From the NCBI RefSeq assembly GCF_017254845.1, contig NZ_JAFKCU010000008.1:124001-188000 (forward strand): 64,000 bases of DNA. The letters run 5' to 3'. Shown piece after piece: positions 18,654 through 63,034 of this stretch. Both the position numbers and the translations under genes were made by a program. The notes under the pieces are model-generated. The model was not told the origin of the DNA and made no database searches. It saw only the letters and a list, made by a program, of their open reading frames with translations. The DNA is from Algoriphagus pacificus (GTDB taxonomy: Bacteria > Bacteroidota > Bacteroidia > Cytophagales > Cyclobacteriaceae). The first letter of the stretch is position 1. Every line of letters begins with the position of its first letter.

Positions 18654-18730
18654 TCTTTTTTAAACATGATTCTCAAATTTAAAAAACTATTAGAAAAAAC
18701 ATAATTTTAGTTTATTTTCATTTTCAGTTC

Positions 18731-24231: not shown

Positions 24232-24233
24232 TT

Positions 24234-26785: not shown

Positions 26786-26789
26786 TTCC

Positions 26790-28542: not shown

Positions 28543-28654
28543 AGACTTTGTGATGATTTTAAGAAATTTATATGGTAGTGATGATTACGCATGTTTGTAA
28601 GTGCCTCATCAGAATAAATTATTTAATAGTGAAACTTTTAAAACAAATGAAAAC

Positions 28655-32535: not shown

Positions 32536-32724
32536 GGTTTTTCAAATCGTAAATAATTCTAACCATCTACAACAAAACACGCTTTTGATGGCAGGTATTG
32601 CATTGCGTGTTTGCAATGAGCAAGATGTAGGATTGTCTGACGCCAATCCGATCTTGCCCACCGCTGCCGGAGTTGCGGTAGGGATAAAATTTCTCCGAAG
32701 TCGAATTTTATTATCCTCTGAACT
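32536..32724 (+). other. Candidate origin of transfer region
   Basis: The ~190-bp gap before the relaxosome gene holds two short inverted repeats: CATTGC-gtgttt-GCAATG (near 32599-32616) and ACCGC-tgccggagtt-GCGGT (near 32660-32680). It is more GC-rich than the surroundings. The oriT of Bacteroidota mobilisable elements commonly lies directly upstream of the mob genes. No nic consensus could be confirmed by eye. Confidence 0.35.
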
Positions 32725-33105
32725 GTGAAAAAAAGATCAGTCAACTATCCGATACGTAAGACCATTCGATTCACTCAATCCGAAGCTGAGAAACTTAAAA
32801 TTCTACTTCATAAAAGCGCTTATTGCCAGACCTTGAGTGAATTGGTTAGAGAAGTTCTTTTCAAAAGAAAATTGACAGTGAACACTAGAAACAAATCTGT
32901 GGAGAAGACTCTGCTTGAATTAGGTTTGCTCAGAAATGAACTCAATAAAATCGGAGTGAATATCAACCAGATTACGCATTATTTCCATTTACAGGCTGAT
33001 CCTAAAGAGCGTCAGTTTTTTGTCAGGGAATTGCTTCCTCATTTGGATCGTGCCAAGACAAAAATAGATTCGTTTCATCAGTTAATTGAAGGATTGAAAT
33101 TCTGA
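32725..33105 (+). CDS. Relaxosome accessory protein (MobA/MobC-like)
   Basis: 126 residues from a GTG start. An N-terminal ribbon-helix-helix-like segment (IRKTIRFTQSEAEKLKILLHKS) is followed by the conserved helix ELGLLRNELNKIGVNINQITHYFH, which marks the plasmid-mobilisation relaxosome family (the LxxxxNQIxx motif). It binds oriT DNA and helps the relaxase. It is 4 bp upstream of the relaxase gene. Confidence 0.9.
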   Translation: MKKRSVNYPIRKTIRFTQSEAEKLKILLHKSAYCQTLSELVREVLFKRKLTVNTRNKSVEKTLLELGLLRNELNKIGVNINQITHYFHLQADPKERQFFVRELLPHLDRAKTKIDSFHQLIEGLKF

Positions 33106-33109
33106 GCTT

Positions 33110-42299: not shown

Positions 42300-42626
42300 G
42301 GTAGACAGAGGGGGACATAAGTGGACTTTAAATTTCTTTTTCCAGTAAACAAGTGTCTTTAGCTGCAATCATGCTTATCTATTAATATGAAGGCTGCGTC
42401 CAAGGCGGATTGTTTAGATGATTAATCCATCAAGGGACTTTTTAAATCAGACAACTCTCGAGGAAATTTTTTGCTCCGTGAGATCATTTATCAGCTTTGG
42501 AAAAATACTTGAAATGTAAAAATAGTGTGTATTAAAAGTGAAATTTGCATAAAAATCGTAAATTTTTACTCTAAAATTGCACATGTATGCTTTTTTAACG
42601 TAAAATTGTATTTAAATCGTAATGCC
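42300..42626. other. 327-bp spacer before the RloAB-like pair
   Basis: AT-rich. Short repeated words (AAAATCGTAA twice, TAAAATTG twice) lie between 42540 and 42620, near the likely promoter of the ATPase gene. No gene seen. Confidence 0.4.
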
Positions 42627-43937: not shown

Positions 43938-44502
43938 ACGGATTTTGATTTTATGTGAGGGAGTGACCGAAAAACTCTATGCAACTTCACTCCGGGCAGA
44001 GTTAGGGAGAAATCTTCAGAGAAGTATTGCCGTGGAGGTAGCACAGGGAGATCAGCAGAATCCGTTGGATCTGGTGCGGGAGGCTATCGGAAAGAAGAAA
44101 AAAGCCAGAAAGGAAAAGAATCCATATGATGACATCTGGATATTCTTTGATCATGACAACTGGCCACAGTTGAGAGATGCTTTTCTGCTAATCGAGAAAG
44201 AAGAATTTAAGTTTTCTTTTACCGCCCTTTGTATGGAGCATTGGTTTATCCTTCATTTTGAAGAATGCGGAAGGGCATTTCAGCGGGGAGAAGATGCACT
44301 TAGTCATCTTCGAAGGTTGTGGCCTCAATACCATAAAACCAAACTGAATCACTTTGGTGAGCTGAAAGGGAGTCTGCAAGTAGCCACAGAACGTGCTATT
44401 AGAATGAATAAAAGGCAAGAGGAAAATGCAATCACGGAGAAGAATCCCTATTGTACGATACCGGATCTGATTTCTTTTTTTCAATCATTGGAGGACGGGT
44501 AG
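43915..44502 (+). CDS. RloB-family (Toprim-like) putative nuclease
   Basis: 195 residues. It starts RRPNRRILILCEGVTEKLYATSLRAEL, in which the Glu of CEGVTE is the Toprim-like acidic residue. The second acidic cluster is DDIWIFFDHDNW (Asp-x-Asp), and ALCMEHWFILHFEE is the RloB signature. Together these form the catalytic metal site expected of the RloB/AbiLii nuclease. It overlaps the ATPase gene by 23 bp, so the pair is translationally coupled. Function as a defence effector is inferred from the family. Confidence 0.9.
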   Translation: MSLRRPNRRILILCEGVTEKLYATSLRAELGRNLQRSIAVEVAQGDQQNPLDLVREAIGKKKKARKEKNPYDDIWIFFDHDNWPQLRDAFLLIEKEEFKFSFTALCMEHWFILHFEECGRAFQRGEDALSHLRRLWPQYHKTKLNHFGELKGSLQVATERAIRMNKRQEENAITEKNPYCTIPDLISFFQSLEDG

Positions 44503-47501: not shown

Positions 47502-47503
47502 CT

Positions 47504-48811
47504 ATGAATATTAAACCAAAAGAAGCCACCTCAATTGTCAATTCACTCATCGGTGGAGTCGTGCCCAAAATTGGAGTTCAGCATATCACCGTGGGTAGAT
47601 CTTCAGAGATCAATGCGATGGTCACTGCATTGGAAGAAGTGAAGAATGGCCATAGCATGGTCAAATTCTGGATTGGAGACTTTGGGTCAGGAAAATCTTT
47701 TATGCTGCACCTTTTGAATACAGTTGCATTAAAACAAAAATTTGTTGTGGCCAATGCTGACTTTACACCCGACAATAGGTTGTACTCAAATGACGGTAAA
47801 GGAGTGGCGCTTTATTCTGCAATCATGGATAATATTGCTATTCAGACCAAGCCTGAAGGAGGGGCATTACCTACACTTCTTGAAAAATGGATAGAGCAGA
47901 TCATAGCCAAGACCGCTGAAGAGAATGCGCTTCTTCTGACAGAGATTAGAAATGAAAAGTATTTGGGTCTTATACAGAATAACATTATGAAAACCATCAA
48001 CGAGATAACCGAGGTTGGTGGGTTTGATTTTGGAACTGTAGTGATGAAGTACTATGAGGGTTATATAAAAGATGAAGAGAGCCTTAGGAGAAATGCCCTC
48101 AAGTGGTTAAAAGGAGAATATAAGACCAAAACAGAAGCTCGTCAGGATCTGGGAGTTCGTGAAGTGATAAATGATCTGAACTATTATGATATGCTAAAGA
48201 ACTTTTGCAAGCTCTTTGTCAGCATGGGGTATAGCGGTTTTATGATCAATTTGGATGAAGCCATTAATCTCTATAAAATTTCGACCTCGACGATGAGAGA
48301 GAAAAATTACGAGAAGATTCTTACGATCTACAATGACTGTTTTCAGGGAAAGGTGGGTAACCTGTTTATCAATTTTGCCGGAACAAAAGAAGTCCTTGAA
48401 AACCCAAGAAGAGGTTTCTTTAGCTATGATGCGCTCAAAACTAGACTTTCAACCAACAAATTTGAAACAGCGGAAATTAGGGATTTTGCGCAGCCAGTAA
48501 TTAAGCTACTTCCATTGGACCACAACGAAATATTTGTATTACTCAAGAAGTTGAAAGAGATATTTGATTTCAATTATAAAACCCAAATTGAGATATCAGA
48601 TGATGAAATCCAGCAATTTATGGAAGAACTGTTCAATAAGCCTGGAGCATCCGAGTTCCTTACACCTCGTGAGGTCATTAGGGATTTCTTAAATATCCTC
48701 AATATCATCAGACAAAACCCTGATGTAGATAAAAGCATTCTTTTCGGTGAAATGGAAGTGTCCGATGAAAGGCCTGATGAATCGGCACTTGATGGGATTG
48801 AGGAACTGTAA
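47504..48811 (+). CDS. BREX BrxD-like P-loop ATPase (DUF2791 type)
   Basis: 435 residues. Early in the chain is ITVGRSSEINAMVTALEEVKNGH, then Walker A IGDFGSGKS (57-65) and ADFTPDNRLY; Walker B is GFMINLDEA (~244-252). A sensor-like NFAGTKEVLE and the C-terminal winged-helix-like LTPREVIRDFLNILNII follow. It matches the ATPase found in type 2 BREX and related operons. It overlaps the helicase start by one base (TAATG). No PglX methylase or PglZ phosphatase is present, so this is not a BREX system. Confidence 0.88.
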   Translation: MNIKPKEATSIVNSLIGGVVPKIGVQHITVGRSSEINAMVTALEEVKNGHSMVKFWIGDFGSGKSFMLHLLNTVALKQKFVVANADFTPDNRLYSNDGKGVALYSAIMDNIAIQTKPEGGALPTLLEKWIEQIIAKTAEENALLLTEIRNEKYLGLIQNNIMKTINEITEVGGFDFGTVVMKYYEGYIKDEESLRRNALKWLKGEYKTKTEARQDLGVREVINDLNYYDMLKNFCKLFVSMGYSGFMINLDEAINLYKISTSTMREKNYEKILTIYNDCFQGKVGNLFINFAGTKEVLENPRRGFFSYDALKTRLSTNKFETAEIRDFAQPVIKLLPLDHNEIFVLLKKLKEIFDFNYKTQIEISDDEIQQFMEELFNKPGASEFLTPREVIRDFLNILNIIRQNPDVDKSILFGEMEVSDERPDESALDGIEEL

Positions 48812-50961
48812 TGAGTTATCATATGCTATCAGAGCCTATCCGAAGGTTTATCAGGGATAAAGGATGGGAAAGTCTAAGGCCAATCCAGAATGTTGCGATC
48901 ACGAAGATCATGGGAACTGAGGAAAATTACATCCTCATCTCAAGAACAGCTTCAGGAAAAACGGAGGCGGCATTTCTACCGATTTTATCCAAGGTCAACT
49001 TTATGGACAAGGGAATTCAGGTATTGTATGTATCACCACTTATAGCCCTGATCAATGATCAGTTTGCCAGAGTGGAAGACCTCTGCAAATACCTGGATGT
49101 AAAAGTCACCAAATGGCACGGAGAAGCTAACAGAACAATCAAAGAAAAACTGGTTAAAGACCCTAGTGGTATTATCCTGATTACACCGGAATCTTTGGAA
49201 GCCATGTATGTTAATCGTCCTTATCAGGTGAGGACACTTTTTTCTGATCTTAGATATGTAGTAATTGATGAGATCCACTCTTTTATAGGAACGGATAGAG
49301 GCATACAGCTTCAGTCAATTTTATCAAGGCTCCAGCAAGTAAACAATTCTAGATTTTCGATAGTAGGCCTATCGGCCACAGTGAGTGAAGCGAATAAATT
49401 TCTGGAAGTAAAATCCTTCACGGGAGATGTGGATCATACTAAAATTCTCATTGATAGAACCCCAAAAGAGATAAATGCTGTTTTCCGTTTTTTTAAGTCA
49501 GAGGGGGAAGAGCTGCCCCTAGAATTGTTGAAGGATTTATACCGCGAGACCAAAGATTCAAAAGTCTTGGTTTTTCCTAATAGCCGAGGCAGGGCCGAGG
49601 AGGTGGCCGTCAAACTGAAAAAGATCTCAGTTAAGGTAAATGGGCACCCTAATTACTTCTCTCATCATTCTTCTGTGGATAGACAGGTTAGGGAGTATGT
49701 GGAATACTTTGCAAAAAACAATAAGCATCAGAGCTTTTGTATTTCATGTACTTCTACGCTGGAATTAGGAATTGACATCGGTTCTGTGGATGAGGTGGTG
49801 CAGATCGATTCCACCCATAGCATTGCATCTTTGATCCAGCGGGTAGGAAGAAGCGGCAGAAAAGATGAACAGCAAAGCAATTTGTTCCTCTATGCTACTG
49901 ATCGTTGGAATTTACTTCAATCAATAGCTTGCTGGTTATTGTACAAAGAGGGGTTTATAGAACCTCCCCAAATCACCGAGAAACCATTTGATATTTTACT
50001 GCATCAAGCACTTTCTATTGCTAAGGGGTATTCAGGACTGCCTATCTCAGAGTTAATTGACCAACTCTTTAATAATTCCGCCTTTAGCGCTATTGATCAA
50101 AATGAGATCGAGGAAATCATTGATCATTTGATCGAAATTGATTTACTGGAAAAACTTAGGCAAGAGGTTATTATTGGAGTAGAAGGTGAAAAGGTTGTAA
50201 ACAGTAGGGATTTTTACAGCATGTTTCAATCTGAGGATAATTTCAAGGTGGTCAATGCAGGTAACAATATCGGTGAGGTGCCCTATTCTCCACAGTTGGT
50301 GGAAAATGAAAACATTTTGCTTGCAGCCAGTATCTGGAAAATCAAATTTGTGGATGAGCAGGCAAAGCGCGTAGAAGTTGTCCCTGCACATGATGGTAAA
50401 AAGCCAATCTTTTTTGGTGGGGCTGGTACCATACATCCGAAAGTTCGGGAGAAAATGTTTGAATTACTTTATTCTACCGAATCCTATGACTTTCTGGATG
50501 AGCCTAGTGCTATTGAATTAAATATACTCAGGAAAGACTTCTCTGTCTTTGATATAACAGATCAAAGATCCCAGAGACCATTGAAAGTATCAGAACAAAA
50601 GCTTGAGTTATTCACCTTTACAGGAAGTCGTATTAATAGAACCATTCAGTTTTTATTTGATATGGCGGGAATTCCCACCATTTTGGACGAACAGAAAAGT
50701 GTACTGGAAATTAAAATTACCGAGGAAGAATTTAACGCATGCTGGGGTAGCTGGAATGATTCACAAGTTGTACTGGATCTAAAGATTCAACAAAAAGTGG
50801 AATCCAGCCCTAGTATTATGAGCTTTTCCAAGTGGGCAATATACTTACCGCTTTCTTTTCAAATAAAGATACTTAAACAGAAGTACTTTGATTTCGAATC
50901 AGCAGAGAAGTTGCTAGATCAAATGAAACCAGTTTGGAATGGAAGATATACTAAAAGTTAA
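48811..50961 (+). CDS. Lhr/BrxHI-like DEAD/DEAH helicase
   Basis: 716 residues. Motif I is SRTASGKTEA (44-53), motif II DEIH (150-153), motif III GLSATVSEA, and motif VI QRVGRSGRKDE in the second RecA domain. The C-terminal ~300 residues follow the Lhr-like plan and include GGAGTIHPKVREKMFELL. The domain set matches BrxHI, the superfamily-2 helicase that accompanies BrxD. It is the last gene of the TerB operon, co-translated with the ATPase gene. It likely unwinds or remodels invading nucleic acid. Confidence 0.9.
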   Translation: MSYHMLSEPIRRFIRDKGWESLRPIQNVAITKIMGTEENYILISRTASGKTEAAFLPILSKVNFMDKGIQVLYVSPLIALINDQFARVEDLCKYLDVKVTKWHGEANRTIKEKLVKDPSGIILITPESLEAMYVNRPYQVRTLFSDLRYVVIDEIHSFIGTDRGIQLQSILSRLQQVNNSRFSIVGLSATVSEANKFLEVKSFTGDVDHTKILIDRTPKEINAVFRFFKSEGEELPLELLKDLYRETKDSKVLVFPNSRGRAEEVAVKLKKISVKVNGHPNYFSHHSSVDRQVREYVEYFAKNNKHQSFCISCTSTLELGIDIGSVDEVVQIDSTHSIASLIQRVGRSGRKDEQQSNLFLYATDRWNLLQSIACWLLYKEGFIEPPQITEKPFDILLHQALSIAKGYSGLPISELIDQLFNNSAFSAIDQNEIEEIIDHLIEIDLLEKLRQEVIIGVEGEKVVNSRDFYSMFQSEDNFKVVNAGNNIGEVPYSPQLVENENILLAASIWKIKFVDEQAKRVEVVPAHDGKKPIFFGGAGTIHPKVREKMFELLYSTESYDFLDEPSAIELNILRKDFSVFDITDQRSQRPLKVSEQKLELFTFTGSRINRTIQFLFDMAGIPTILDEQKSVLEIKITEEEFNACWGSWNDSQVVLDLKIQQKVESSPSIMSFSKWAIYLPLSFQIKILKQKYFDFESAEKLLDQMKPVWNGRYTKS

Positions 50962-51282: not shown

Positions 51283-52382
51283 AGCTGCTGATACGCTATG
51301 CTCCCGAATCGCATTGTTCTCGTGATTGAAATATCGGGACCAGCTCTCCCCTTGAAGGGAGGGAATTTGATCCGTAATGGAAGAATGATTTTTCTCCTTT
51401 TTAAAATCGTCCCAGGAAGTTCCGATTTTGTGACCTCATAATTTTAATTCTTATTAGAATCGTCCTAGGTAGCTACACAATCTGGATCTGTTTATATCAT
51501 TTGCAGCAGTGTCGGTCGCCTTCTCCTAAAGTGCCTGTCCCGATGAGAGGCGCGATATCGGGAAGAAGGCAGGGGATGAGGTCCAAAAATACCCAGTACA
51601 TGGTAAGTTTTCATATCATTTTTTCTCTTTCTTACAAAAGCCTTTTAGTTATTGAAATCGAAGATCCCGAGAGCTTTGCCAAGAATTGAAAATTCTATGG
51701 CATGCAATTCGGGAACGACCAACCAATTCACTTCTTTTCCTTGATTTCTCAATTGTAGCAGGATCAAGTTCCTCCTGTTTCAGGAGGAGGCTAGGAGGAG
51801 ATAGAATAGCCAACTTTTAATACCCATCCGGGCTTAAATCCGGAAACCATCCAACGCTTTTGATCCTGATATCTTGATGATAGCACAAAACGATCACCTT
51901 CTCCTAAATAACCTTTCCCGATAGAGCAGCGTGTCGGGAAGAAGGTGGGGGATGAGGTCATCAAGCCAATTACAAATTGGTAAGGATATAAGGTTTGAAT
52001 TACAAATTCAACTCAGTCACCATGAACAATATGACTACACCCAGCTGGGGAATGTCTTTGTGGAAATGACTTTTCTTTTTTTGTTGGACAAGATAAATAG
52101 TTAAATGGAATATGAAAATGAGTAGATCAATGATCCTATTGAAGATATTTTGGTGAAGTTTCAAACTTCCGTCAGTGGAATAAGGACGATTTGATTACCC
52201 CCATTATGGGATAATTAAAGCCTAATTGGATCTTTTCATTTTCCTTAATCTCTAAATCTTAAATATTTTTTACTATTCACCGTCTATAAGATCGATCGCC
52301 CTCTCTTTCAGGAGAGAGCCTGTCCCGATAAGGAATGCGATATCGGGAGAAGGGATCAGGTCATCAAGCCAATTACAAATTG
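51283..52382. repeat. Cluster of degenerate intergenic palindromic repeats
   Basis: At least four copies of an element with the plan CG.TC.CCTTCTCCTAAA ... CCCGAT...ATCGGGA-AGAAGG...GATGAGGTC: around 51283-51370 (opposite orientation), 51511-51583, 51891-51979 and 52293-52382. The last two also share 25 bp, AGGTCATCAAGCC...AAATTG, at their right ends. Another fragment lies near 51765-51800. Each copy can fold as a hairpin around CCCGAT/ATCGGG. No ORF in this patch is convincing. Confidence 0.75.
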
Positions 52383-52397
52383 ATTCGGATAGCTGGG

Positions 52398-52786
52398 GAA
52401 AGTTCTTTTTACAGATAAACCTGAGCCATATTTGATTTCTATGTTTCATCATCTCAATGGACATAGGCCGAATTTTTTTTTTAAGAGCCCAACCAACTCC
52501 AGAGTTATTCTGGGTTAATCATTATTTGCCTGCTTTTTATTTCAAGGGTGGATTTAATTCAGTTTTTGAGGAGCAAGAAAAAGAGAGGCAAGAAGCAGCG
52601 GAAAAGAAGAGGCTGGAACTGGAAAAACTTAAATTTGATGTCAAGAATACCAAAAGGATTTACAAGACGTATTGGTGGGCGATTGGGTTTGCACTGGTTG
52701 GTTTTGTCTATTTGGTGATTCGTCTTGGTACCTGGCTTTTGGAGGCGCAGACTTTTGATTTCAAAGCTTCAAAGATCCATAAATGA
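52398..52786 (+). pseudogene. Degraded second copy of the gene at 38869-39324
   Basis: It matches ~38961-39305 at high similarity, including FHHLNGHRPN, then PTPELFWVNHYLPAFYFKGGFNSVFEEQEKERQEAAEKKR and a C-terminal transmembrane helix. The 5' part is missing, and a 2-bp loss around a run of ten T (~52473-52482) puts the two halves in different frames. The C-terminal half can be read from 52457 as 109 residues, but it is unlikely to be native. Confidence 0.8.
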
Positions 52787-53507: not shown

Positions 53508-53810
53508 TTAATGGTTATAGTTAGACTTTCTTATAATTTCAGGGACGGTAGTGGCAAGTGATCTTAATATTAGTGGTGCTGAAAGTCCTACATGAAAGTA
53601 GACAATTTTATTAAGCTTTTGAGTGTCATCGAAATAAACATAGCCTAAAATTCCACTTAGAATAAGATTAAATAGTATAACTAAATAATAAGCAACTGAC
53701 TTGAAATCTGGCCGTCTATCAGCGGGGGCTGAAAGTCCATCAATAATATTTAAAAGTTGGAGTGTTGCGCCACCAAGCAAGCACAACCAAACTGATTGTG
53801 GAATTACCAT
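53508..53810 (-). CDS. Small membrane protein, last gene of the Argonaute operon
   Basis: 100 residues with two to three hydrophobic segments (VWLCLLGGATLQLLNII, AYYLVILFNLILSGILGYVYF and a weaker one). No family recognised. It starts 3 bp after the preceding gene, so it belongs to the operon. Small membrane proteins accompany several Argonaute and abortive-infection systems as effectors; that role here is inference. Confidence 0.65.
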   Translation of the reverse strand: MVIPQSVWLCLLGGATLQLLNIIDGLSAPADRRPDFKSVAYYLVILFNLILSGILGYVYFDDTQKLNKIVYFHVGLSAPLILRSLATTVPEIIRKSNYNH

Positions 53811-53813
53811 AGA

Positions 53814-54086
53814 TTAATCAATTCTATTTTTAAAAGCACCTATAACTTTATCAACAAGTGGAGCTTTATCTCGAAAAATATCTCGCGAGGTATACAAGGG
53901 TTCACCTTGTTTTACCCTATAAGAAGAACGAACAAAGTCGCCTGAGTCAGTTATGATTTCAGCAACGGTAGCAGAGTCTATTTGAGTAAAGTTTGCGATT
54001 TCCTCAAGTGTCTTCCAATAATCTCCCTCAAGAGATGCAAAGAACTGCAATATTGTGTTCTTTTGAATTTCGAGTCTTTTATTCAT
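53814..54086 (-). CDS. Winged-helix-like hypothetical protein in the Argonaute operon
   Basis: 90 residues. The N-terminal half, KNTILQFFASLEGDYWKTLEEIANFTQIDSATVAEI, has the outline of a winged helix: two helices and a recognition helix, then a strand pair (YRVKQGEPLYTSRDIF). No exact family known to me. It lies 13 bp behind the metallopeptidase-like gene and 3 bp before the membrane-protein gene. Confidence 0.62.
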   Translation of the reverse strand: MNKRLEIQKNTILQFFASLEGDYWKTLEEIANFTQIDSATVAEIITDSGDFVRSSYRVKQGEPLYTSRDIFRDKAPLVDKVIGAFKNRID

Positions 54087-54099
54087 ATAACCTTACTTT

Positions 54100-55233
54100 T
54101 TACAAATTTTCCTTGAATGTACTGACAATAGTTCGTTCCCAATCTTGAAATTTTTGAGGATCTTTCCAAAATTGTTTCCATGAATCGTTTAATATACGGT
54201 TGACTTTGCCAGTAGTTGTTGGGGTAGTGATTTCACAGTCTATTTCTTTAATTCCAACTAAGCAAAATTCTGCTGCACTTTTTAATATTGCTTCGGGATA
54301 TGCAATAAAATAATCTGCTGTTCTGATTTGTCCTATTATTTGCACAAACTCATTCCACTTTTTCCGTATCTCTCTAGCATCATCTTCAAAACCTATTTGT
54401 TCCAATGCAATTAAGCAACAACGCATCCTTGCATCACCAGCGGGGTGAGTGCTAATTTCATGAGTAGGGGTTTTACAAACTTCCCATGACATTTTGGAGC
54501 ACATGTGAAGGTTTGACCAAAGGTATGCTGGTCCAAGTGTGTAGGTAGCGAACAAGTCGCAAAATATCTCTATCGACCATTTTTGTAGCCAGGAATCTTT
54601 ATAAATATAAATTGGATCACTTATATCCTTACTTATTTTATTCATCTCCCTTCTACTAATTTCTTTCTCATAATGTTGTTTTACACCCAAATTGAAGTAT
54701 CCCAAGTTATTCTGAAACTTAGTCACTTTTGGGTTATCTAATTCGATTAGTGGGTGACCAAGTTCATGGTATAGATCAGGAATATGCAATAAAAATTCTG
54801 ATTCAAGCAATGGAATGCATATAAGACCATATTCAGGATAAATATGATAATATTTTTGGGATAAACATGATGCGACTGGAGAAGGAAGTGGAAAATTAAT
54901 CTCACTACAGATTTCTTTTACAAGCTTATTAACATAATCGTCATCTACTGACTTTCTGCTCATAGCTGCTATTACAATATTTTCAATTTTGGAGAGCATC
55001 CCCGCAAGCATCTTGAAACGTGAAAACTTTGTTTTAAGGTTTTTGGGATCACTATAAGTTGTATCTCCATAAAGCCTGTCAAGAGCATCGATAATCTCGC
55101 CTATTTCATTGTTGGCGAAATTAGCCAAGGATGAAAAGTGTGAGCCTAGCGTCCTTGAACCTGGTATTTTGGACATAAGCGACCGTCCTCTACCTATTGC
55201 TTCCCTAATCGCTCCATCAATGTAATTAACCAT
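54100..55233 (-). CDS. Zinc-metallopeptidase-like protein (HELGH) in the Argonaute operon
   Basis: 377 residues. The zinc motif His156-Glu-Leu-Gly-His160 sits in DLYHELGHPL; a third ligand is expected from Glu222 or Asp226 in WSIEIFCDLFATYTLGPAYLW, giving a gluzincin-like set. No signal peptide or membrane helix, so it acts in the cytoplasm. The N-terminal ~110 residues are helical. It shares TAATG with the upstream gene (stop/start overlap), so the two are co-translated. A protease linked to a long Argonaute is not a combination I know. The substrate might be an operon partner or a host protein (inference). Confidence 0.78.
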   Translation of the reverse strand: MVNYIDGAIREAIGRGRSLMSKIPGSRTLGSHFSSLANFANNEIGEIIDALDRLYGDTTYSDPKNLKTKFSRFKMLAGMLSKIENIVIAAMSRKSVDDDYVNKLVKEICSEINFPLPSPVASCLSQKYYHIYPEYGLICIPLLESEFLLHIPDLYHELGHPLIELDNPKVTKFQNNLGYFNLGVKQHYEKEISRREMNKISKDISDPIYIYKDSWLQKWSIEIFCDLFATYTLGPAYLWSNLHMCSKMSWEVCKTPTHEISTHPAGDARMRCCLIALEQIGFEDDAREIRKKWNEFVQIIGQIRTADYFIAYPEAILKSAAEFCLVGIKEIDCEITTPTTTGKVNRILNDSWKQFWKDPQKFQDWERTIVSTFKENL

Positions 55234-55598
55234 TATTCACCCATGATTTTTAATAATGCATCGCTGTTCTCAGTATCTAAGATGTCGGCTAGAAACTCAA
55301 TTTTTGGTAAATACTGCTCAATATTGTTTTCCTTTACTTCTTCAATAACAGAATCCAGATAATTTTCAAAATCTTTGGAAGCAAAACGAAGTTCTCGTTC
55401 TACTATATTCGATAATAATTGAAATTGAGGTTGAATGTTATTTTCATCTTTTATTTGTGATATAAAATCAATCAGATGTTCTTTTTGTCCCTTTTCAATC
55501 TCTTGATTAATCTTCGCTTTTACTACATAATTATTTAGCAAGTCAAGATACTTTCCAGTTATTCGAAATGTGTTTGTGTTTAAGCCAATGCTGCTCAT
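55233..55598 (-). CDS. Small helical protein between Argonaute and metallopeptidase genes
   Basis: 121 residues, predicted all-helical, acidic C terminus (ENSDALLKIMGE). No family recognised. It starts 11 bp after the Argonaute stop and overlaps the metallopeptidase start by one base. The position suggests an adaptor, inhibitor or activating partner of the peptidase, which the sequence alone does not show. Confidence 0.65.
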   Translation of the reverse strand: MSSIGLNTNTFRITGKYLDLLNNYVVKAKINQEIEKGQKEHLIDFISQIKDENNIQPQFQLLSNIVERELRFASKDFENYLDSVIEEVKENNIEQYLPKIEFLADILDTENSDALLKIMGE

Positions 55599-55609
55599 AT
55601 TTATTTTTT

Positions 55610-58039
55610 TTAAAAATGAACTGATTTAAGAATATCTAACGATTCCAAGTCGAAATCGCTACCAATTGTGTTGATTCTCCGATCTGTAATTTTAATTGTC
55701 ACTGGAAGACGTGAACAATCATCTGGTTTTGTATATGCTAAACATGATAGTTGATATAAATCTTCTAAAAGCTTTTCAAAGTCCATTGCACCAGAATTGT
55801 ATTTAACATATAATGGAATTGAAGTTCCTTGGTGACGGAATTCTCGCCCAGTTGTACACAAAAATGCTTCATATTTATTGATCATAACATAAGAACCTAT
55901 TTCTGGATTTAATACTTTCCCATTATCTTTCCGTTGTGTTTTGATATCAAATTTTTCAATGACATCGAATAGACGAAATGGCACAATAGAATGTTTAGGG
56001 ATTTCTAAAATGCTAACAGAACAAGTATTAGGCAATACTCCCTTATCCTTTAATGTATTTATTGCTTGTATAATGCCATCTTTCTCACGTTGAAAAAGCC
56101 TGCCATCACGATGTATTACTATACGTTCAATTGAATAGTCTAAATGTTTTTTTAATAATGTGAGATTGGGTACAAGCATCCTAATCATTTGACTGGTAGT
56201 CAGTCGTTCCCTATTACTTGACTTGTCAAATCGAGTAAGTATATTTTTTGAAAACTTGTCAACAAACGTAAAGCCTGCAATCTGCTTTTTAACGTCAATT
56301 CCTATGGTTAAATCTGCGTTTAAAGGTGAATGAAGAACATATGGCCAACGTTCATTATTTAATAACACTTGATTCACCGCTACACCAAACACATACCCTT
56401 TATATTTTCCGGCTAATTCACGCTTCACTTCATAAGTATTCTTTCCGTTATACTTCTTGTACAAAAAACATTCTTCCAAAGTCTCACTGTGCATAATGCT
56501 TGCTGTGAGATCGTGTTCGCTGAGGCATTCAGATACTACTAAAGCTGCCAATTGATCGTGTTGACGTTTAATCCGCTCCATATTGGATGGAAGCATAACT
56601 AAAGCATAGCCGCCTTTCCTTTCCTTAACGACCTCTTTGATTTGCCTTAGTATTTCAAAACCTATGTCAACTGAGTCTTTCCTGTTTCTGTTATCGTAGA
56701 GAATAATATCTGGATTCCACCCAATTTCACTAGGATGCATTGAATTAACCTGACTTATTAAGTCGGACAAGAAATAATCCTTATTTCCATACATGTTGAA
56801 TATGGTTTCAGGAACAACGAAATATTGTTTTTGAAATGTGGCTACTGTGTAAAATCCTTTATCCCTTAAGAGTTCTTTTCTTGCTCTACCAATTCCCTTC
56901 ATTGAGACAACATGTGCATCCTTCATATTGCGATTAGTAGTCAACACGGTATCACCACCCAAAAGCTGGTCAGGAAACTTAAATTTTTTCTTAACTACGG
57001 TAACAGGCTCAGGGCTAATTTTTAATCTTATCGAGCCAAACCGGATATTTTTAAAGAACCTATGAAATGCCGAGCGTATGAGCATTCTACGATAGAAAGG
57101 ATCAAGAATCGACTGCCTATGCAGTTTACCAACTTTGGGATTTTCAGTATCGAACACTTGATAACAAAGCCCGGCAATAACTCGTCTTTCTTGGTTATCA
57201 TTAGTTTTGTAAATTAACACTGAAGCATTGTCAGGCAATTTTGCGACTTCCGGAGGCATTGATCGCCCAAACTTTGAACGAATGTCTTCCAACAGTGTAA
57301 CCATAGTACCGTCTTCTTGTCTGAGAAATTTGAATTGAGTTGCATTAAGATCACTGAACTGTTCTGCCCTGAACTCATATTTCTGACTTCCATATTGATG
57401 TATGAAATGTGGTCTCGATCCCCCTAAACGTTCAAAATCACGCCTTGTTAGGTGAACATTTAAAGGTGTTTCGGATAGATATTTTTTGGTTACATCAATT
57501 GAAAAACCAAACCCACCTTCCGGAAGCTCAACTGTTCTAACAAAAAATCCATTGTATATGGCAACACCATTAATAATCCGTTGTGGCTCCTGACTGAAGA
57601 AAGCATCTCCAGAAGTCGGTTGCCAAAGAGTTGATAGGTTATTTAGTTCTGTTTGAATATCAAATTGCAAAAACCTTAGAACTATTTCCCGAACTGATTC
57701 GTAATTCGCAAAATCAATGGGAAACGATTCATTGATTTGCGTAAAATAGACAATGTCGTCCCTTTTTACCAAAAACTCGGATGGTACATTAGCTATTACC
57801 TCTGATTCATCCCTTACAACTAAAAAGGGTTTATTGTCTCTGTGTATAACCGTTACAGGATGTTTTAATTCATAGGACAGTCTTTTTATGATATATTGAA
57901 TGTTGTTATCATAATCGTCTTCTGATTCATGTAACCCAGTAATCTCAAATAAAACATAATTTGCCGATAGTTCATTTAAGTTTTCTATGCGGAAAATATC
58001 TGTTTCATATTCTCTAATGTTTGATTCATATCTTTTCAT
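55610..58039 (-). CDS. Long prokaryotic Argonaute with intact PIWI catalytic residues
   Basis: 809 residues, the usual size of a long pAgo (N-L1-PAZ-L2-MID-PIWI). The MID region (~440-560) includes VMLPSNMERIKRQHDQLAALVVSE. The PIWI domain starts LTIGIDVKKQIAGFTFVD (Asp582), has a candidate glutamate finger Glu611, IVIHRDGRLFQRE (Asp645) and LPVTIKITDRRIN (Asp786), a plausible DEDD tetrad, so a guided nuclease is expected. It overlaps the Cas4-like nuclease gene by 14 bp. Known long pAgos use DNA or RNA guides to cut invading DNA. The guide and target of this one cannot be read from the sequence. The adjacent helicase, nuclease and peptidase suggest it is part of a larger defence unit (inference). 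Confidence 0.92.
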   Translation of the reverse strand: MKRYESNIREYETDIFRIENLNELSANYVLFEITGLHESEDDYDNNIQYIIKRLSYELKHPVTVIHRDNKPFLVVRDESEVIANVPSEFLVKRDDIVYFTQINESFPIDFANYESVREIVLRFLQFDIQTELNNLSTLWQPTSGDAFFSQEPQRIINGVAIYNGFFVRTVELPEGGFGFSIDVTKKYLSETPLNVHLTRRDFERLGGSRPHFIHQYGSQKYEFRAEQFSDLNATQFKFLRQEDGTMVTLLEDIRSKFGRSMPPEVAKLPDNASVLIYKTNDNQERRVIAGLCYQVFDTENPKVGKLHRQSILDPFYRRMLIRSAFHRFFKNIRFGSIRLKISPEPVTVVKKKFKFPDQLLGGDTVLTTNRNMKDAHVVSMKGIGRARKELLRDKGFYTVATFQKQYFVVPETIFNMYGNKDYFLSDLISQVNSMHPSEIGWNPDIILYDNRNRKDSVDIGFEILRQIKEVVKERKGGYALVMLPSNMERIKRQHDQLAALVVSECLSEHDLTASIMHSETLEECFLYKKYNGKNTYEVKRELAGKYKGYVFGVAVNQVLLNNERWPYVLHSPLNADLTIGIDVKKQIAGFTFVDKFSKNILTRFDKSSNRERLTTSQMIRMLVPNLTLLKKHLDYSIERIVIHRDGRLFQREKDGIIQAINTLKDKGVLPNTCSVSILEIPKHSIVPFRLFDVIEKFDIKTQRKDNGKVLNPEIGSYVMINKYEAFLCTTGREFRHQGTSIPLYVKYNSGAMDFEKLLEDLYQLSCLAYTKPDDCSRLPVTIKITDRRINTIGSDFDLESLDILKSVHF

Positions 58040-58982
58040 AATCTTTCGACTTACAGATTTTTTTGAATGAGCAATTATGACAGTTTTCTATATAGTAGGT
58101 TGTTTCAAAGTTTTCAGGATTAGCATCACCATATTTTTTGTGACAGCCTTTCATATACATCTGAATGACACCTTTTGACATCTTATCATTGAGTCCTTCT
58201 AACTTTTCTTTTGTCACCTCATAGTCTCGCCGGATGCGATCTGGGTGTAAGAGCTGGTACTCTGTTAATTTATAATCGTATATCTGATAACGTCCTAGGT
58301 TAGCTGGAAAATCAATATGTGGTTTCGTTTTTGATACCTTGTATAGAGCAATCGCATAAGAAAGTAGTTGTTCATCGTATGTATGTATACCAAAAGTGTG
58401 AACTTTCCAGTCGATTATATGTGGGGGGGCATTATCAAAAAAAACGATAAGATCGGGTTTAGAGGATACAGGCATTCCACTAAACAAATAATGTAATGAG
58501 CGTTGACTAGCGAGGAACTTGGCAGATTGGAGATATGCTATGAATTCTCTATCTGCTAACAGATTGTTTAATGCAAAATGAATATCATTGCGGGCATTGT
58601 TCAAAGCTAGTTCACTACACTCAATGCCAAACTCATAATTAACTAAGGCAGCAAAATCCTTATCCTGTGAATATCTCCTGTCTGGCTCACGGTATTTTTG
58701 AAACGCAGCATATTCTAGTTGGCTATCAAATAACTGATCTGCTTCCTTCAGTAAATAAGCTTTGTCAATCGGAAATTTTTTATTTATCGCGTTTACTAAT
58801 AAGCGGCTAACGACATCATCGACAATTTTTCCGCGCCAGGCCTCTATAGTATCAAGCTTAGACAGGATTGTTACCTCCTTTCGAAAAGCATCGTTTTTAA
58901 CACGTCCGTCCGCAACGATATTCTTAAAATACCATTGCAACTCGCACTTTTGAAAAAGCTTATATCCTGTAGGCGTAAACAT
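58026..58982 (-). CDS. Cas4-like PD-(D/E)XK nuclease with iron-sulfur Cys set
   Basis: 318 residues. The nuclease core has Asp177 (KPDLIVFF), Asp191-Trp-Lys193 (IIDWKVH) and the Gln205-x3-Tyr209 motif (EQLLSYA) of the RecB/Cas4 group. One N-terminal Cys (Cys13) and three C-terminal Cys (Cys301-x2-Cys304-x5-Cys310) match the 4Fe-4S arrangement of Cas4 and AddB. It would degrade or trim single-stranded DNA, perhaps to make guides for the Argonaute or to finish target destruction. There are no cas1, cas2 or CRISPR repeats nearby. It follows the XRE gene by 5 bp and overlaps the Argonaute by 14 bp. Confidence 0.9.
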   Translation of the reverse strand: MFTPTGYKLFQKCELQWYFKNIVADGRVKNDAFRKEVTILSKLDTIEAWRGKIVDDVVSRLLVNAINKKFPIDKAYLLKEADQLFDSQLEYAAFQKYREPDRRYSQDKDFAALVNYEFGIECSELALNNARNDIHFALNNLLADREFIAYLQSAKFLASQRSLHYLFSGMPVSSKPDLIVFFDNAPPHIIDWKVHTFGIHTYDEQLLSYAIALYKVSKTKPHIDFPANLGRYQIYDYKLTEYQLLHPDRIRRDYEVTKEKLEGLNDKMSKGVIQMYMKGCHKKYGDANPENFETTYYIENCHNCSFKKICKSKDYEKI

Positions 58983-58987
58983 TTTTA

Positions 58988-59323
58988 TTATTTTTTTCGA
59001 GACCTTATAAACTTCAAATAATTTAATAATTCCACTTCTTCATCTTCTGTTATTTCACCAATGCGATACGCTGCAGCACCGGATTTGGCCAATCTCTCCT
59101 CTTTTTGTGGCACCGGATAGCCCACCTTTTCCATAAGAACTTCATAACTGACGCCATAAAAGGAAGCCAATTTATGAAGTGTTAAGGGGGAAGGTTGTTT
59201 GATTTTTCCTGATTCCAACTGACTGAGATAGGCGTTAGACACATAGGTTGCTTTCTCCACCTCCCTTAAGGTTAACTGCTTTGATTCTCTTAAAGCTTTA
59301 AAGTATTCGCCGTAATTCTCCAT
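58988..59323 (-). CDS. XRE-family regulator of the Argonaute operon
   Basis: 111 residues from the ATG at 59323. A longer frame to 59365 would run into the operator repeats and lacks family residues. The HTH is YFKALRESKQLTLREVEKAT, VSNAYLSQLESGKIKQPSPLTLHKLASFYGVSYE, followed by a charged tail (ITEDEEVELLNYLKFIRSRKK). It is first in the operon, 5 bp before the nuclease gene. The promoter region upstream has two TGCTTGCGAAA repeats that fit autoregulation. Confidence 0.9.
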   Translation of the reverse strand: MENYGEYFKALRESKQLTLREVEKATYVSNAYLSQLESGKIKQPSPLTLHKLASFYGVSYEVLMEKVGYPVPQKEERLAKSGAAAYRIGEITEDEEVELLNYLKFIRSRKK

Positions 59324-59353
59324 TTCACGAAATAATTTTTTCTGTTTGCTAAG

Positions 59354-59396
59354 TTTCGCAAGCAAAAATATGAAACACTGATAAATTTCGCAAGCA
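59354..59396 (-). promoter_or_regulatory. Promoter with direct operator repeats of the Argonaute operon
   Basis: Read on the minus strand: TGCTTGCGAAA at 59396-59386 and again at 59364-59354, 32 bp apart. Between and over them lie a TTG-type -33 element inside the first repeat and TATTTTTG (TAnnTTTG) at 59370-59363, joined to the second repeat. A regulator bound to both would cover the -33 and -7 boxes, the layout of a repressed promoter. Confidence 0.6.
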
Positions 59397-59427: not shown

Positions 59428-61527
59428 TCAATTATGAAAAGTTTTAAGATAAATGTTAAGTGCTTGTAACTGTCCCATCGATAGCTTTCCGGCTGACACT
59501 GGTCGTAGCCGCGCAATTGAAGGGGACTTAATTTGTCTTACAAGTGGTAGAATTTCGTTTAAAATGTCTTGTGGGACTATGTCAACCAAGTTCACCTCCC
59601 CAGTCGGTATATAAGAGGCAAGATGGGCTTCAATTGCAGGAATACCTAACGATCTTCTTGATGCAATCTCAGCAATAGAGTCGCCTGATAAAAACAATTT
59701 CAAACTTTGTGCTTCTGTTGAAATGGAAGTAGACCTAAGTTGAGTAGTAGGTATAACCTTATTTAGGGCAGTCTTTTTAGGAGCAGTAATTTCATGGGGT
59801 AAATAGTTAACCCCTTCTGCAACACCTTTTGCAACTTTACATGCCAGGGCAATGCCTGAAATCTTTTCCTGAAACAGCTTCACATAATTTTTCATGCGAT
59901 TAATATCAGCTCTAAACTTAAAATCATCCTTTTCTTTCTTTATAAAATCTTTCAACAGGCCTATACACTTTAAATTAATTTCACTGGAAAAATACGTTTC
60001 TGCCTGTACAAGCCTATCAGAAAGTAGTTTCCAATTTTCATCATAAATATACTGATTGGCCTTATCTAAAAAAGTAGATGCGTATCCCTGCAACTTTTCT
60101 GAAACATCATGCACGTTTTTTATTATTGTGTCAGAAGCATTAATAGGAATAGTTGCATAGTTTAATTGATCCCACTGGAAGCTTTTAAACAAAAAGTCTT
60201 TCATATAGGCCTTCTTATCTTCCCTGAGTTTCATTTTAATTTTATGAATATCCGAGCCACCCAAAAACATCGTTTCAGTTATAGGAGGCGCAATAATTAC
60301 TGAGGATGAAATTGTAGATTTTAGAAAGACGCCCTTTAGCATTCTGATTCTGCTTAGCGCAACATATACTTGCCCGGGTGCAAATGCCTCAGCTATATCA
60401 ATAACCGCTTTTTCAAATGTCAGTCCTTGACTCTTGTGAACTGTTATAGCCCATGCCAGTTTTAAAGGGAATTGTTTGAAGGTGCCGATTACTACCTCTT
60501 TTAGAGAATCGTTTTCTGCGTCAGTTGCATAGCTAACATTAGACCATATTTCACGGTTAAAAGTAATGATGGTTCCATCATCAAATTTCACCTCTATTGC
60601 CTGATTATCAATAACGGAAACCAAGCCTACTTTACCATTAAAAAATTGACTATTCCCTGTATTGTCGTTTTTAATAACCATGACACGACAACCAATTTTT
60701 AGCTGAAGAATATTATCTACAGGAGCATTATCAGCAAAAAAATCTCCTGTAATTTCAGCAGGAAAAGTATATACAAGTCCAGGTAAACTTTTAAGTCGCT
60801 GGTCATTTACCTCTGAAACATAACGGTTATGGGTTGTAAGGATAACAGCTTCTTTTTGAAACCAATCTGGACTGTATAAGCTGTTAAGCATTTCCAATTC
60901 GTTATCCAATAGACGCCCCCTTCTGATAGCGTTAAGTAAATTAATGAAAACAGGATCGGATTGGCGATAAATTTCAGTTAGTTCTAGCATGAGCATATTA
61001 AGCCCAGGAAAAGTTTTTGCATTTATGAAATACAAGTTTTGGTATAGTCCTTGGAGTGTTTCTGCATCCTTTCGAGTTTCTATTGGAGGTAACTGAAACA
61101 AATCTCCAATCAATACAATCTGGAGCCCACCCAATGGACGAAGATCTTGCCGTACCTCCTTAAGCAAATAATCCATCGCATCAAGAACATCAGCCCGTAA
61201 CATTGATGCCTCATCAATTACCAGCAATTCTAATTCCCGCAAAAGGGATTTGGACTGTCCAGAAAGATGAATATTTTTAACTGTCCCATTGTCCAAAGGA
61301 CGGGCTGGTAACCCGAACAGAGAATGAATTGTAATTCCACCTGCGTTTACAGCAGCGACTCCTGTTGGCGCTGCTATGGCCAGTTTTTTATGTGTTTGGC
61401 TTCTTAAGATTTTAAGAAAAGTTGTTTTGCCTGTACCGGCACCTCCTGTCAAAAATACGTTCTGGTAGGTGTGATTGATAAAATCCAGTGCAATGCTGGC
61501 AATACTATGCTGATTATCTTGATTCAT
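59428..61527 (-). CDS. Pif1-type helicase with C-terminal HTH/HRDC-like region
   Basis: 699 residues. Walker A is LTGGAGTGKTT (26-36), Walker B is LLVIDEASML (101-110), and the Pif1 motifs VHKSQGLTFEKAVIDI and GQVYVALSRIRMLKGVFL are present. The C-terminal ~130 residues contain SIAEIASRRSLGIPAIEAHLASYIPTGEV, a helix-turn-helix of the kind attached to RecQ/Pif1 helicases. A 5'-to-3' DNA helicase that could unwind target DNA for the Argonaute or nuclease. It is separated from the XRE gene by ~100 bp holding the operon promoter, so it is probably a separate transcript. A TATATTTG box (TAnnTTTG) lies a few bases before the ATG, hinting at a nearly leaderless mRNA. Confidence 0.9.
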   Translation of the reverse strand: MNQDNQHSIASIALDFINHTYQNVFLTGGAGTGKTTFLKILRSQTHKKLAIAAPTGVAAVNAGGITIHSLFGLPARPLDNGTVKNIHLSGQSKSLLRELELLVIDEASMLRADVLDAMDYLLKEVRQDLRPLGGLQIVLIGDLFQLPPIETRKDAETLQGLYQNLYFINAKTFPGLNMLMLELTEIYRQSDPVFINLLNAIRRGRLLDNELEMLNSLYSPDWFQKEAVILTTHNRYVSEVNDQRLKSLPGLVYTFPAEITGDFFADNAPVDNILQLKIGCRVMVIKNDNTGNSQFFNGKVGLVSVIDNQAIEVKFDDGTIITFNREIWSNVSYATDAENDSLKEVVIGTFKQFPLKLAWAITVHKSQGLTFEKAVIDIAEAFAPGQVYVALSRIRMLKGVFLKSTISSSVIIAPPITETMFLGGSDIHKIKMKLREDKKAYMKDFLFKSFQWDQLNYATIPINASDTIIKNVHDVSEKLQGYASTFLDKANQYIYDENWKLLSDRLVQAETYFSSEINLKCIGLLKDFIKKEKDDFKFRADINRMKNYVKLFQEKISGIALACKVAKGVAEGVNYLPHEITAPKKTALNKVIPTTQLRSTSISTEAQSLKLFLSGDSIAEIASRRSLGIPAIEAHLASYIPTGEVNLVDIVPQDILNEILPLVRQIKSPSIARLRPVSAGKLSMGQLQALNIYLKTFHN

Positions 61528-61726
61528 TAATGCAAATATAAATTTTTGCCATGTTTTTTTGCTTTTTGGAGAAACCCCGACTAGCAGTGATACAAAATGT
61601 AATTCCAGCCTACGGAAAGATGCTAGGCATCAATACTCTGAAAATTGCCCTCATTATTAGATTCCTGGTGTAGGAGATCGTAATGAAAGAGTTATTTTGC
61701 AATTGGATGGTCTTAAAACAAAAATT

Positions 61727-63034
61727 ATGGATAGGAAATCGCTGGTAATTGGAATAGGAGATTATAATCACTTTTCGTCCTTGGACAATTGTGTCAATGA
61801 TGCAACCGATATTCATTCATTTCTTGTTGAAAACGGGTTTGACAGTACTCTGATTATAAATGCCAAACAAAAGAACCTTGTAGCAAGTATTGCCAAATTC
61901 AAAGACTCCATCGCGGAAAACACAATTTCTGTGATTTTTTTCGCCGGGCACGGTTTGCAGGATGATAAGCATAATTTCTTAGTAGCAGCGGATTCAGAAG
62001 TGAAAAGTACAATTGATATAAAATATAATTGCGTTTACGCTGACGATTTATTTATAACTGAATCGAAAGCGAATCTTCATTTGATAATACTAGACGCATG
62101 CAGGAATAACCCATTTAAGGATGGAAATAGAGGCATTACAGTGGGACTATCAAAAATGCATGCGCCAGCGGGAACACTGATAGCTTTTTCAACTAGTCCC
62201 AATAGCGCGTCACTGGAGCGTGCTGGGGAACGAAACGGGATTTACACGAAACACCTTTTGAATAACATTCAGACTCCAAATTTGCCAGTTGAACTGGTGT
62301 TTAAGAATACTAGAAACGATGTCATTCTAGATACAAAGCAACGGCAGGTCCCTTGGGAAGAATCCTCCTTATACGGCGATCATTTTTCTTTTATAAATGC
62401 TAAACAGGATGTCATTGAAAGTTTCGTTGCCGAGGTAATTGAATCGGATCGGAAAATAGGCTTAGTGGAACTGATGCCGTTTTTGAATGTATCAAATTTT
62501 ACTAACCTATCTATTAACCAATTATTGATGATTCTGGCACTAGTCAGAATTAGTTTTGGGATGGAAGAAGAGAAAGAGCATTCAATGACAGTTGACCATG
62601 ACTACCTAGATAATTTATTATTTACAACTTATTTTCCGCTATTTGATGAAAGATTATTCAAAGAAGATAAGGCTACTGAGCCATTTTCTTTAGACCTCTT
62701 CAATCAGATAACTATAAAGAGAGGAAGGAATTTTGGCTATAATTCCTTAGAAGGTCCGGATGAATCTTTCTCGCAATTTATGATGAACATTGTTAAGTGG
62801 TACGGTGACGATGCATTGCTCTTGCTATACCTATCCGTTAAAGATGATCAACATGTTTTAAAACCTACTATTATCACTTCAAAGAATGGTAATCTCATAA
62901 TACACAATTATGCACAAGTAATAGGGGATAAAGTCAAAGAGATTTTTGAACCTTATCTTAAAATGAGAGAACCTTTTGAAAAGAAGACACCAGACCTTTT
63001 TAGCGACATGACCATTGAACAAATCGATGATTAG
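61727..63034 (+). CDS. Caspase-fold (peptidase C14) protease with unknown C-terminal domain
   Basis: 435 residues from the ATG at 61727, which gives the family start MDRKSLVIGIGDY; a TTG 30 bp upstream is less likely. The dyad is His75 (IFFAGHGLQDD) and Cys125 (LIILDACRNNPF). Substrate-binding elements (FSTSPNSASLERAGERNGIYTKHLL) are present. The C-terminal ~220 residues are not recognised and may sense or recruit. Caspase-like proteases are effectors in many bacterial defence systems, where they cleave proteins to stop growth. It is divergent from the Pif1 helicase, so the two share a ~200-bp control region. Confidence 0.9.
   Translation: MDRKSLVIGIGDYNHFSSLDNCVNDATDIHSFLVENGFDSTLIINAKQKNLVASIAKFKDSIAENTISVIFFAGHGLQDDKHNFLVAADSEVKSTIDIKYNCVYADDLFITESKANLHLIILDACRNNPFKDGNRGITVGLSKMHAPAGTLIAFSTSPNSASLERAGERNGIYTKHLLNNIQTPNLPVELVFKNTRNDVILDTKQRQVPWEESSLYGDHFSFINAKQDVIESFVAEVIESDRKIGLVELMPFLNVSNFTNLSINQLLMILALVRISFGMEEEKEHSMTVDHDYLDNLLFTTYFPLFDERLFKEDKATEPFSLDLFNQITIKRGRNFGYNSLEGPDESFSQFMMNIVKWYGDDALLLLYLSVKDDQHVLKPTIITSKNGNLIIHNYAQVIGDKVKEIFEPYLKMREPFEKKTPDLFSDMTIEQIDD

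Follow-up and report, generated by a model that had tools for sequence, protein, structure and literature searches.

A metallopeptidase gene pair co-inherited with PliAgo-group Argonaute operons, and a possible proteolytic switch

The operon and its closest described relatives

Long prokaryotic Argonautes (pAgos) were linked to Cas4-like nucleases in earlier surveys (PMC2743648, PMC6299218, PMC10653904), and the ‘D-R’ pAgos, RNA cutters that work with DNA guides, divide into a PliAgo and a PnyAgo group (Lisitskaya 2022, PMC9360449). In both groups a Cas4-like nuclease gene precedes that of the pAgo, accompanied by a helix-turn-helix (HTH) regulator in the PliAgo group and by a sigma-70 factor in the PnyAgo group; RslAgo, PliAgo and two others are active when purified alone from Escherichia coli, DNA-guided cutting of RNA only being established for RslAgo and PliAgo, and the authors speculate on defence or gene regulation as the natural role (PMC9360449). 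Here we describe an operon of this kind from Algoriphagus pacificus, located in a 64,000-nucleotide stretch of contig NZ_JAFKCU010000008.1 (positions 124,001 to 188,000 of the forward strand; hereafter ‘the window’, whose own numbering is used throughout), in which the pAgo gene is followed by genes for a small helical protein and a HELGH metallopeptidase. We regard it as almost certain that this is an operon of the D-R pAgo kind, with a metallopeptidase pair inherited together with it.

Seven tightly packed genes, all on the minus strand, occupy positions 53508-59396; from the XRE gene to that of the 100-amino-acid protein the distances are 5, -14 (an overlap), 11, -1 (TAATG), 13 and 3 bp, an arrangement that agrees in both coordinates and gaps with the one drawn in an earlier note on this DNA:

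58988-59323, minus strand: XRE-family regulator; 111 amino acids from the conserved ATG; HTH_3 2.1e-12 (Pfam), capH 3.9e-10 (PADLOC)
58026-58982, minus strand: Cas4-like PD-(D/E)XK nuclease; 318 amino acids; Aga_Cas4-like_Nuc 3.8e-123 (PADLOC), PDDEXK_1 3.6e-9 (Pfam)
55610-58039, minus strand: long pAgo of the PliAgo (D-R) kind; 809 amino acids; pAgo_II E=0 (PADLOC)
55233-55598, minus strand: small all-helical protein; 121 amino acids; gene 5' of the peptidase gene
54100-55233, minus strand: HExxH (HELGH) metallopeptidase; 377 amino acids; assigned from conserved motifs and an AlphaFold2 model
53814-54086, minus strand: accessory 90-amino-acid protein, first of an accessory pair; present in 5/31 peptidase loci
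53508-53810, minus strand: accessory 100-amino-acid hydrophobic protein, second of the pair; from its sequence alone probably a membrane protein

The mechanical call for the XRE gene (58988-59365) uses a TTG start; since this start sits at an operator (see below) and aligned relatives begin at the ATG, the ATG at 59323 is most likely the true one.

Amongst solved structures, the pAgo of the window is closest to the PliAgo chains 7r8k, 7r8f and 7r8h (E ~1e-114, nearly full length), the next relatives being two other pAgo sequences at E ~1e-59. In the full-length alignment with PliAgo the DEDD tetrad is kept, D582, E611, D645 and D786 matching D563, E592, D626 and D762; K584 is the counterpart of K565, the group-specific lysine beside the first aspartate whose role in PliAgo has been described (PMC9360449), and H517 aligns with H498 of the RHSY motif in the MID pocket, the only residue of that motif that could be placed. 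As in the PliAgo group, a Cas4-like nuclease gene precedes the pAgo gene and an HTH regulator is present; the PADLOC models pAgo_II and Aga_Cas4-like_Nuc, labelled Class II, both match strongly. By its kinship to PliAgo and RslAgo we predict that the protein is a DNA-guided cutter of RNA. The combination of pAgo, Cas4-like nuclease and HTH regulator has already been described as a D-R (PliAgo-group) operon (PMC9360449), so that the novelty of the unit lies in the peptidase pair.

RslAgo itself (WP_013921749.1) is the product of coding sequence 5219-7624 in one of our loci, L034 on a Runella plasmid, where it is followed by the helical gene and the peptidase; a biochemically known pAgo therefore carries the same gene pair. 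Neither gene is named in those parts of the main text of PMC9360449 that we covered, figures and supplements aside, and both are present at all 22 loci with nuclease and pAgo found here (by way of the peptidase). The main texts of PMC9360449, PMC6299218 and PMC2743648 contain neither ‘protease’ nor ‘peptidase’, and no description of a metallopeptidase in a pAgo operon was found in the titles and abstract openings of the matches listed, a set with few subscription papers or preprints and with figures and supplements outside it. We therefore take the helical gene and peptidase to be a conserved and apparently undescribed part of a system whose kind is known.

The peptidase pair and its association with the Argonaute

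The peptidase begins with an N-terminal helical bundle (residues 1-93), and its conserved residues are H156-E157..H160, E222..C225-D226, H263-P264 and R269; the catalytic motifs, HExxH and ExxCD included, are invariant in all 30 unbroken copies that we collected. The hidden Markov model searches and structure prediction proposed in the earlier note leave it an orphan in four libraries (Pfam, PADLOC and NCBIfam give nothing at E<=1, PHROGs no better than 0.19 and 0.33), and yield a confident AlphaFold2 model (predicted local distance difference test, pLDDT, 91.3; predicted template-modelling score, pTM, 0.89) with weak fold matches to zinc peptidases. Thirteen aligned relatives, that of the window included, return three weak matches to BrxB and one to Cas5a in PADLOC (best 6.5e-4), and one of the thirteen matches Pfam M48 (E 0.011). 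With family M48 (ZMPSTE24) the protein shares HExxH and a weak fold match; it differs in having no significant sequence match, a helical N-terminal bundle and no membrane part that we could see. The later ExxCD and HP..R stretch we take to be M48-like, with E222 presumably the third zinc ligand by analogy with that family. The 121-amino-acid protein is modelled as five helices (pLDDT 93.5); we infer that it is the partner of the peptidase and acts as its regulator.

To establish how these two genes are distributed, we searched by the peptidase alone and only then profiled the neighbours, obtaining 31 distinct loci (the window and 30 others; 25 bacterial and six haloarchaeal) from Bacteroidota, Rhizobium, one cyanobacterium and haloarchaea. 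They derive from one scan of genome contigs (six loci); 395 Bacteroidota genomes, of which eight have a peptidase match, that of A. pacificus included; 194 genomes of its order, with six matches, one of them outside the earlier sample and equal to L007; two families of 117 and 121 genomes, with five and seven matches and six distinct new loci; and 72,556 plasmid records, six of which were found with the window protein and six with a haloarchaeal query, five of the latter being new. The whole genomes covered are thus those of Bacteroidota, the contig scan and the plasmid records extending beyond them. Repeated rows were removed (G772, the Runella plasmid; G726 from Emticicia, with the same coordinates; G440 and G579, the same place as L007), and separate rows kept for L004 and L006, whose peptidases are identical, and for the nearly identical Natrinema and Halosimplex copies. 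The Halorussus locus, in which peptidase and pAgo are broken in several frames, is counted as a locus and left out of motif counts and trees. The census profiles derive from members of the first 25 loci, so that the later six are out of sample.

A pAgo lies within 3 kb of the peptidase in 28 of the 31 loci, and in four of the six out of sample. The helical gene stands directly upstream of the peptidase in every bacterial locus (25/25); the Cas4-like nuclease is found in 22/31, all bacterial, and in these 22 the order Cas4-like nuclease, pAgo, helical gene, peptidase is kept. Eleven loci have an XRE regulator and thirteen a sigma factor with a protein of ~190 amino acids, leaving seven (the cyanobacterium and six haloarchaea) with neither. 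The six haloarchaeal copies are detected by peptidase profiles built from bacteria only (E 1e-10 to 2e-16), and their loci share only the small gene, the peptidase and a convergent pAgo; in Natrinema ~2.9 kb with a transposase separates the last two. All 11 plasmid records with the peptidase hold a pAgo or pAgo fragments.

The reverse search gives the same picture. With the window pAgo as query, 7/390 Bacteroidota genomes match, A. pacificus included, and in all seven the peptidase lies beside the pAgo; the PADLOC model PDLC02382 finds 9/385, these seven together with two weak matches (E 5e-5, 5e-4) in genomes that have no peptidase match. Of ten plasmid records found with the window pAgo nine have the peptidase; the tenth, from Hydrogenophilus, matches weakly and has a different pAgo as its best PADLOC model.

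The trees of these genes also agree. Tree distances correlate at r = 0.976 for pAgo and peptidase (23 loci), and at 0.984 for pAgo and nuclease and 0.886 for pAgo and helical protein (18 loci each); without the haloarchaea, G186 and near-copies the three values are 0.922, 0.967 and 0.958 (18 loci), and nuclease and peptidase agree at 0.959 and, in the reduced bacterial set, 0.917. Within the sigma group the pAgo-peptidase correlation is 0.81 (10 loci) and within the XRE group 0.98 (seven loci), values reached by 0/2000 label shuffles for all loci, 0/2000 for the reduced bacterial set (0.922), 0/2000 for the sigma group and 2/2000 for the XRE group. Co-inheritance is to be expected for neighbours in a mobile operon, and the trees therefore speak for joint travel and not for a mode of action. 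Together with the invariant motifs and the pAgo at 28 loci, they show that the helical-peptidase pair belongs to the system, as the earlier note had held in treating both genes as parts of the operon. The co-occurrence check that it called for came out in favour of these two genes; its last two have a pAgo in five of the six loci where they were found, but are present in only 5/31 peptidase loci.

Three sigma-type loci (G391, G730 and G717) keep the sigma factor, the ~190-amino-acid gene, the helical gene and the peptidase, with no pAgo in the 17-18 kb examined; the whole genome of G391 has no match to PDLC02383. In the peptidase tree they lie inside the sigma group, requiring two changes at branches that are poorly supported, and loss or exchange of the pAgo is therefore the simpler reading. 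At G391 (locus L020, 8324-8734) the nuclease/pAgo slot is filled by a gene for 136 amino acids with GIY...YVG, GIY-YIG-like by eye and with no useful Pfam match; at both G730 and G717 (L083 and L084, 6.3-12.9 kb) two large convergent genes stand beside the peptidase set, one of them caspase-like in G730 (Pfam 1.2e-7) and its counterpart in G717 without a Pfam match.

A double operator, a possible proteolytic switch and the alternatives

Ahead of the XRE gene we find a feature that the earlier note does not contain:

59346-59395, minus strand: double operator, GCTTGCGAAATTTATCAG (59395-59378) and GCTTGCGAAACTTAGCAA (59363-59346), 32 bp apart
59363-59370, minus strand: box TATTTTTG, fitting TAnnTTTG, bordering the second operator copy

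When pairs of GCTTG-N8-AGCAA with at most two mismatches each were sought on both strands of whole loci, pairs exactly 32 bp apart were present in 9/11 XRE-type loci and in 0/20 of the other peptidase loci; dinucleotide shuffles lead one to expect a pair in 0.002 of 11 regions. Spacings within the 20-70 bp range were 32 bp (ten times) and 64 bp (once, in a triple array), with no others, and no pair was found at the Rhizobium and G186 loci of the XRE type. As L002, L003, L004 and L006 are close kin, the independent number behind the nine is smaller. In all nine, TAnnTTTG, which we take to be the Bacteroidetes -7 promoter box, touches the last operator copy. A pair lying over the promoter leads us to predict that the XRE protein represses its own operon, binding to the two copies being predicted from the sequence pattern.

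A precedent for such an arrangement is CapH+CapP, where single-stranded DNA activates a peptidase that cuts a repressor and controls diverse immune operons (PMC13373217), with PprI-DdrO as a second case of control by peptidase and repressor (PMC10904395). In these (PprI/IrrE-DdrO, CapH+CapP) an XRE-type repressor and a metallopeptidase in one defence operon provide inducible immune control; at our locus the capH match (3.9e-10) and the operator-like pair at the operon promoter correspond to the repressor side. By this analogy we propose that the operon is a D-R (PliAgo-group) pAgo defence operon with a built-in proteolytic switch, a statement that, taken whole, we hold tentatively and at somewhat less than an even chance. 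XRE would repress the operon through the operator pair (spacing 32 bp) that overlies the promoter; once induced, the Cas4-like nuclease would make or destroy invader DNA and may supply DNA guides, with which the pAgo would cut invader RNA. The helical protein would hold and regulate the metallopeptidase until infection or DNA damage released it to cut a negative element and turn the system on: XRE here, perhaps by a peptidase bound to single-stranded DNA as in CapH+CapP, the sigma-linked regulator in the sister group, and a linked effector where there is no regulator. Gene content, motif conservation, co-inheritance and the operator pair are the observed part of this scheme; the substrate of the peptidase, its trigger, the regulatory role of the helical protein and the order of events are those we infer.

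Counting for a switch over an effector, 24 of the 25 bacterial loci have a regulator (XRE in 11, the sigma factor with the ~190-amino-acid protein in 13), and where the pAgo is missing the regulator set stays while other putative effectors fill in. Loci without a pAgo thus retain regulator with peptidase, and those of the haloarchaea and the cyanobacterium retain the pAgo, with no such regulator found; the peptidase staying with either one or the other, a switch between both is the best explanation. A number of points weigh against it. Against Pfam and PADLOC the window peptidase gives nothing at E<=1, and none of the 13 aligned members, itself included, matches a CapP-like (ImmA/IrrE-like) or M78 family by name, so that it falls outside the CapP family, though it may work in a similar way. 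Its gene stands fifth in the operon, away from the XRE gene at the front, and comes with a helical partner gene of its own, unlike CapH+CapP and PprI/IrrE-DdrO. Neither regulator was found beside the cyanobacterial and six haloarchaeal copies, which keep the pAgo; the ~190-amino-acid sigma-linked protein bears a weak likeness to the XRE proteins (hhalign probability 32.6), and XRE models, capH among them, match XRE-type proteins at large. No biochemistry of the peptidase was found in the literature covered, and the operators themselves argue for repression, not proteolysis.

The peptidase might instead stand at the output end of the system. In Craspase a nucleic-acid-guided complex drives a protease; by the same logic a loaded pAgo, once bound to its target, would free the peptidase from the helical protein to cut cell proteins and arrest the infected cell. 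Joint inheritance of peptidase and pAgo and their occurrence together in 28/31 loci, also in the haloarchaea and the cyanobacterium where neither regulator was found, fit this; yet three loci have the helical gene and peptidase with no pAgo nearby (one in a genome, G391, without a PDLC02383 match), and a pAgo that keeps its cutting tetrad needs no partner for target destruction; we think such a guide-directed effector rather unlikely. It is conceivable, if doubtful, that in bacterial D-R and haloarchaeal pAgo loci nucleic-acid recognition by pAgo and nuclease is wired via a helical adaptor to the metallopeptidase, whose cuts would decide between defence and cell arrest. Another reading, in which the peptidase would mature the Cas4-like nuclease or pAgo by cutting it, has its own parallel in Hachiman and AVAST loci, where trypsin-like proteases activate pro-nucleases (PMC12799240); there, as here, protease and nuclease are inherited together in immune loci, the former case joining a trypsin-like protease to a pro-nuclease, ours an HExxH peptidase to a Cas4-like nuclease and pAgo. 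Nuclease and peptidase occur together in 22/31 loci and their trees agree, as noted above. But nine loci have the peptidase without this nuclease (the six haloarchaea, G391, G730 and G717), and the activity of RslAgo, PliAgo and two others purified alone indicates that the pAgo needs no maturation (PMC9360449); on balance we hold this reading to be improbable.

Less probable again is that the helical gene and peptidase form a toxin-antitoxin-like pair that stabilises a mobile carrier and merely rides with the pAgo operon. The small gene does come first and overlap that of the enzyme, several copies are on plasmids, and the pair is without a pAgo in 3/31 loci; an independent pair should, however, occur mostly elsewhere, and not beside a pAgo in 28 of 31 loci with its position after nuclease and pAgo kept in 22. 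Hardly any weight can be given to a chance association of the downstream genes with the pAgo: it may hold for the last two genes (5/31 loci, and a Vibrio plasmid pair without a pAgo), whereas for the helical gene and peptidase it is contradicted by the reverse search and the tree agreement and refuted by the peptidase-first census. The presence of the pair with pAgos in bacteria and haloarchaea suggests that protein cutting either switches the system on or is its output; with the peptidase pair belonging to the operon, the protein-directed response envisaged in the earlier note is plausible.

Accessory genes, genomic setting and implications

The 90- and 100-amino-acid genes, which the earlier note had counted as parts of the system, are accessory. 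Besides their occurrence in 5/31 peptidase loci, they were sought in 187 genomes of the order and found only in that of A. pacificus, and homologues of both (33% over 79 residues for the 90-amino-acid protein and 36% over 84 for the other) make up a two-gene unit on a Vibrio europaeus plasmid (L068, 5625-6216), where 12 kb were examined and gave no pAgo match. A membrane-directed response, the other half of that proposal, is accordingly no general feature of the system.

Directly upstream of the operon, on the same strand, lies a gene absent from the earlier note:

59428-61527, minus strand: PIF1-like helicase with C-terminal HTH_40; PIF1 3.9e-30, HTH_40 6.5e-11 (Pfam)

Such a helicase adjoins the operon in 8/31 peptidase loci (upstream in seven, downstream in one); it is a frequent neighbour and possibly a member of the system. 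Divergent from it in the window is a caspase-domain gene (61697-63034; Peptidase_C14 1.3e-29), and in G730 a C14-like gene likewise converges on the peptidase gene. Immediately ahead of the operon, on the opposite strand, is a Shango-type locus (45168-50961; PADLOC SngA 2.1e-41, SngB 3.3e-165, SngC 3.5e-207) and, beyond it, an AbiL-like pair (42525-44502; AbiLi 9.7e-84, AbiLii 6.9e-18), their proximity marking the region as a defence island. Between the Shango locus and the operon (51324-52448) are imperfect repeats, both direct and inverted, of 16-41 nt. Further away (15337-34327), a tRNA-Pro gene is followed by integrase-like (15690-16964) and relaxase-like (33110-34327) genes, identified by eye; the island is perhaps a mobile element that integrated at tRNA-Pro; its ends were not found.

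Other loci have neighbours of their own. A Septu-like PtuA gene converges on the peptidase gene in 5/13 sigma-type loci (L016, L017, L037, L038 and L082; in L016, PADLOC gives PtuA 1.3e-121 and PtuB 1.3e-33). On two plasmids, L034 from Runella (9450-11629) and L037 from Spirosoma (204-2617), multiubiquitin, ThiF-like and DUF6527 genes stand beside the pAgo operon, a set that we take to be a Bub-like operon; and on the haloarchaeal plasmids L039, L053 and L054 genes for a UvrD-type helicase and a large PD-(D/E)XK nuclease precede the small gene and peptidase.

For work on these Argonautes, cloning only the pAgo would leave out two genes inherited, by our census, together with it. The peptidase offers a testable handle in the form of a catalytic-residue mutant, with XRE, the sigma-linked protein, the nuclease, the pAgo and the helical protein as candidate substrates, and the operator pair lends itself to reporting the inducing signal. 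Should the peptidase cut the repressor, control of the CapH-CapP type would be extended to Argonautes, by a peptidase of another family; if it answers to the pAgo, it would be, to our knowledge, the first proteolytic arm of a pAgo system; and an Argonaute-coupled protease, if true, would give the pAgos a counterpart of the CRISPR guided proteases.

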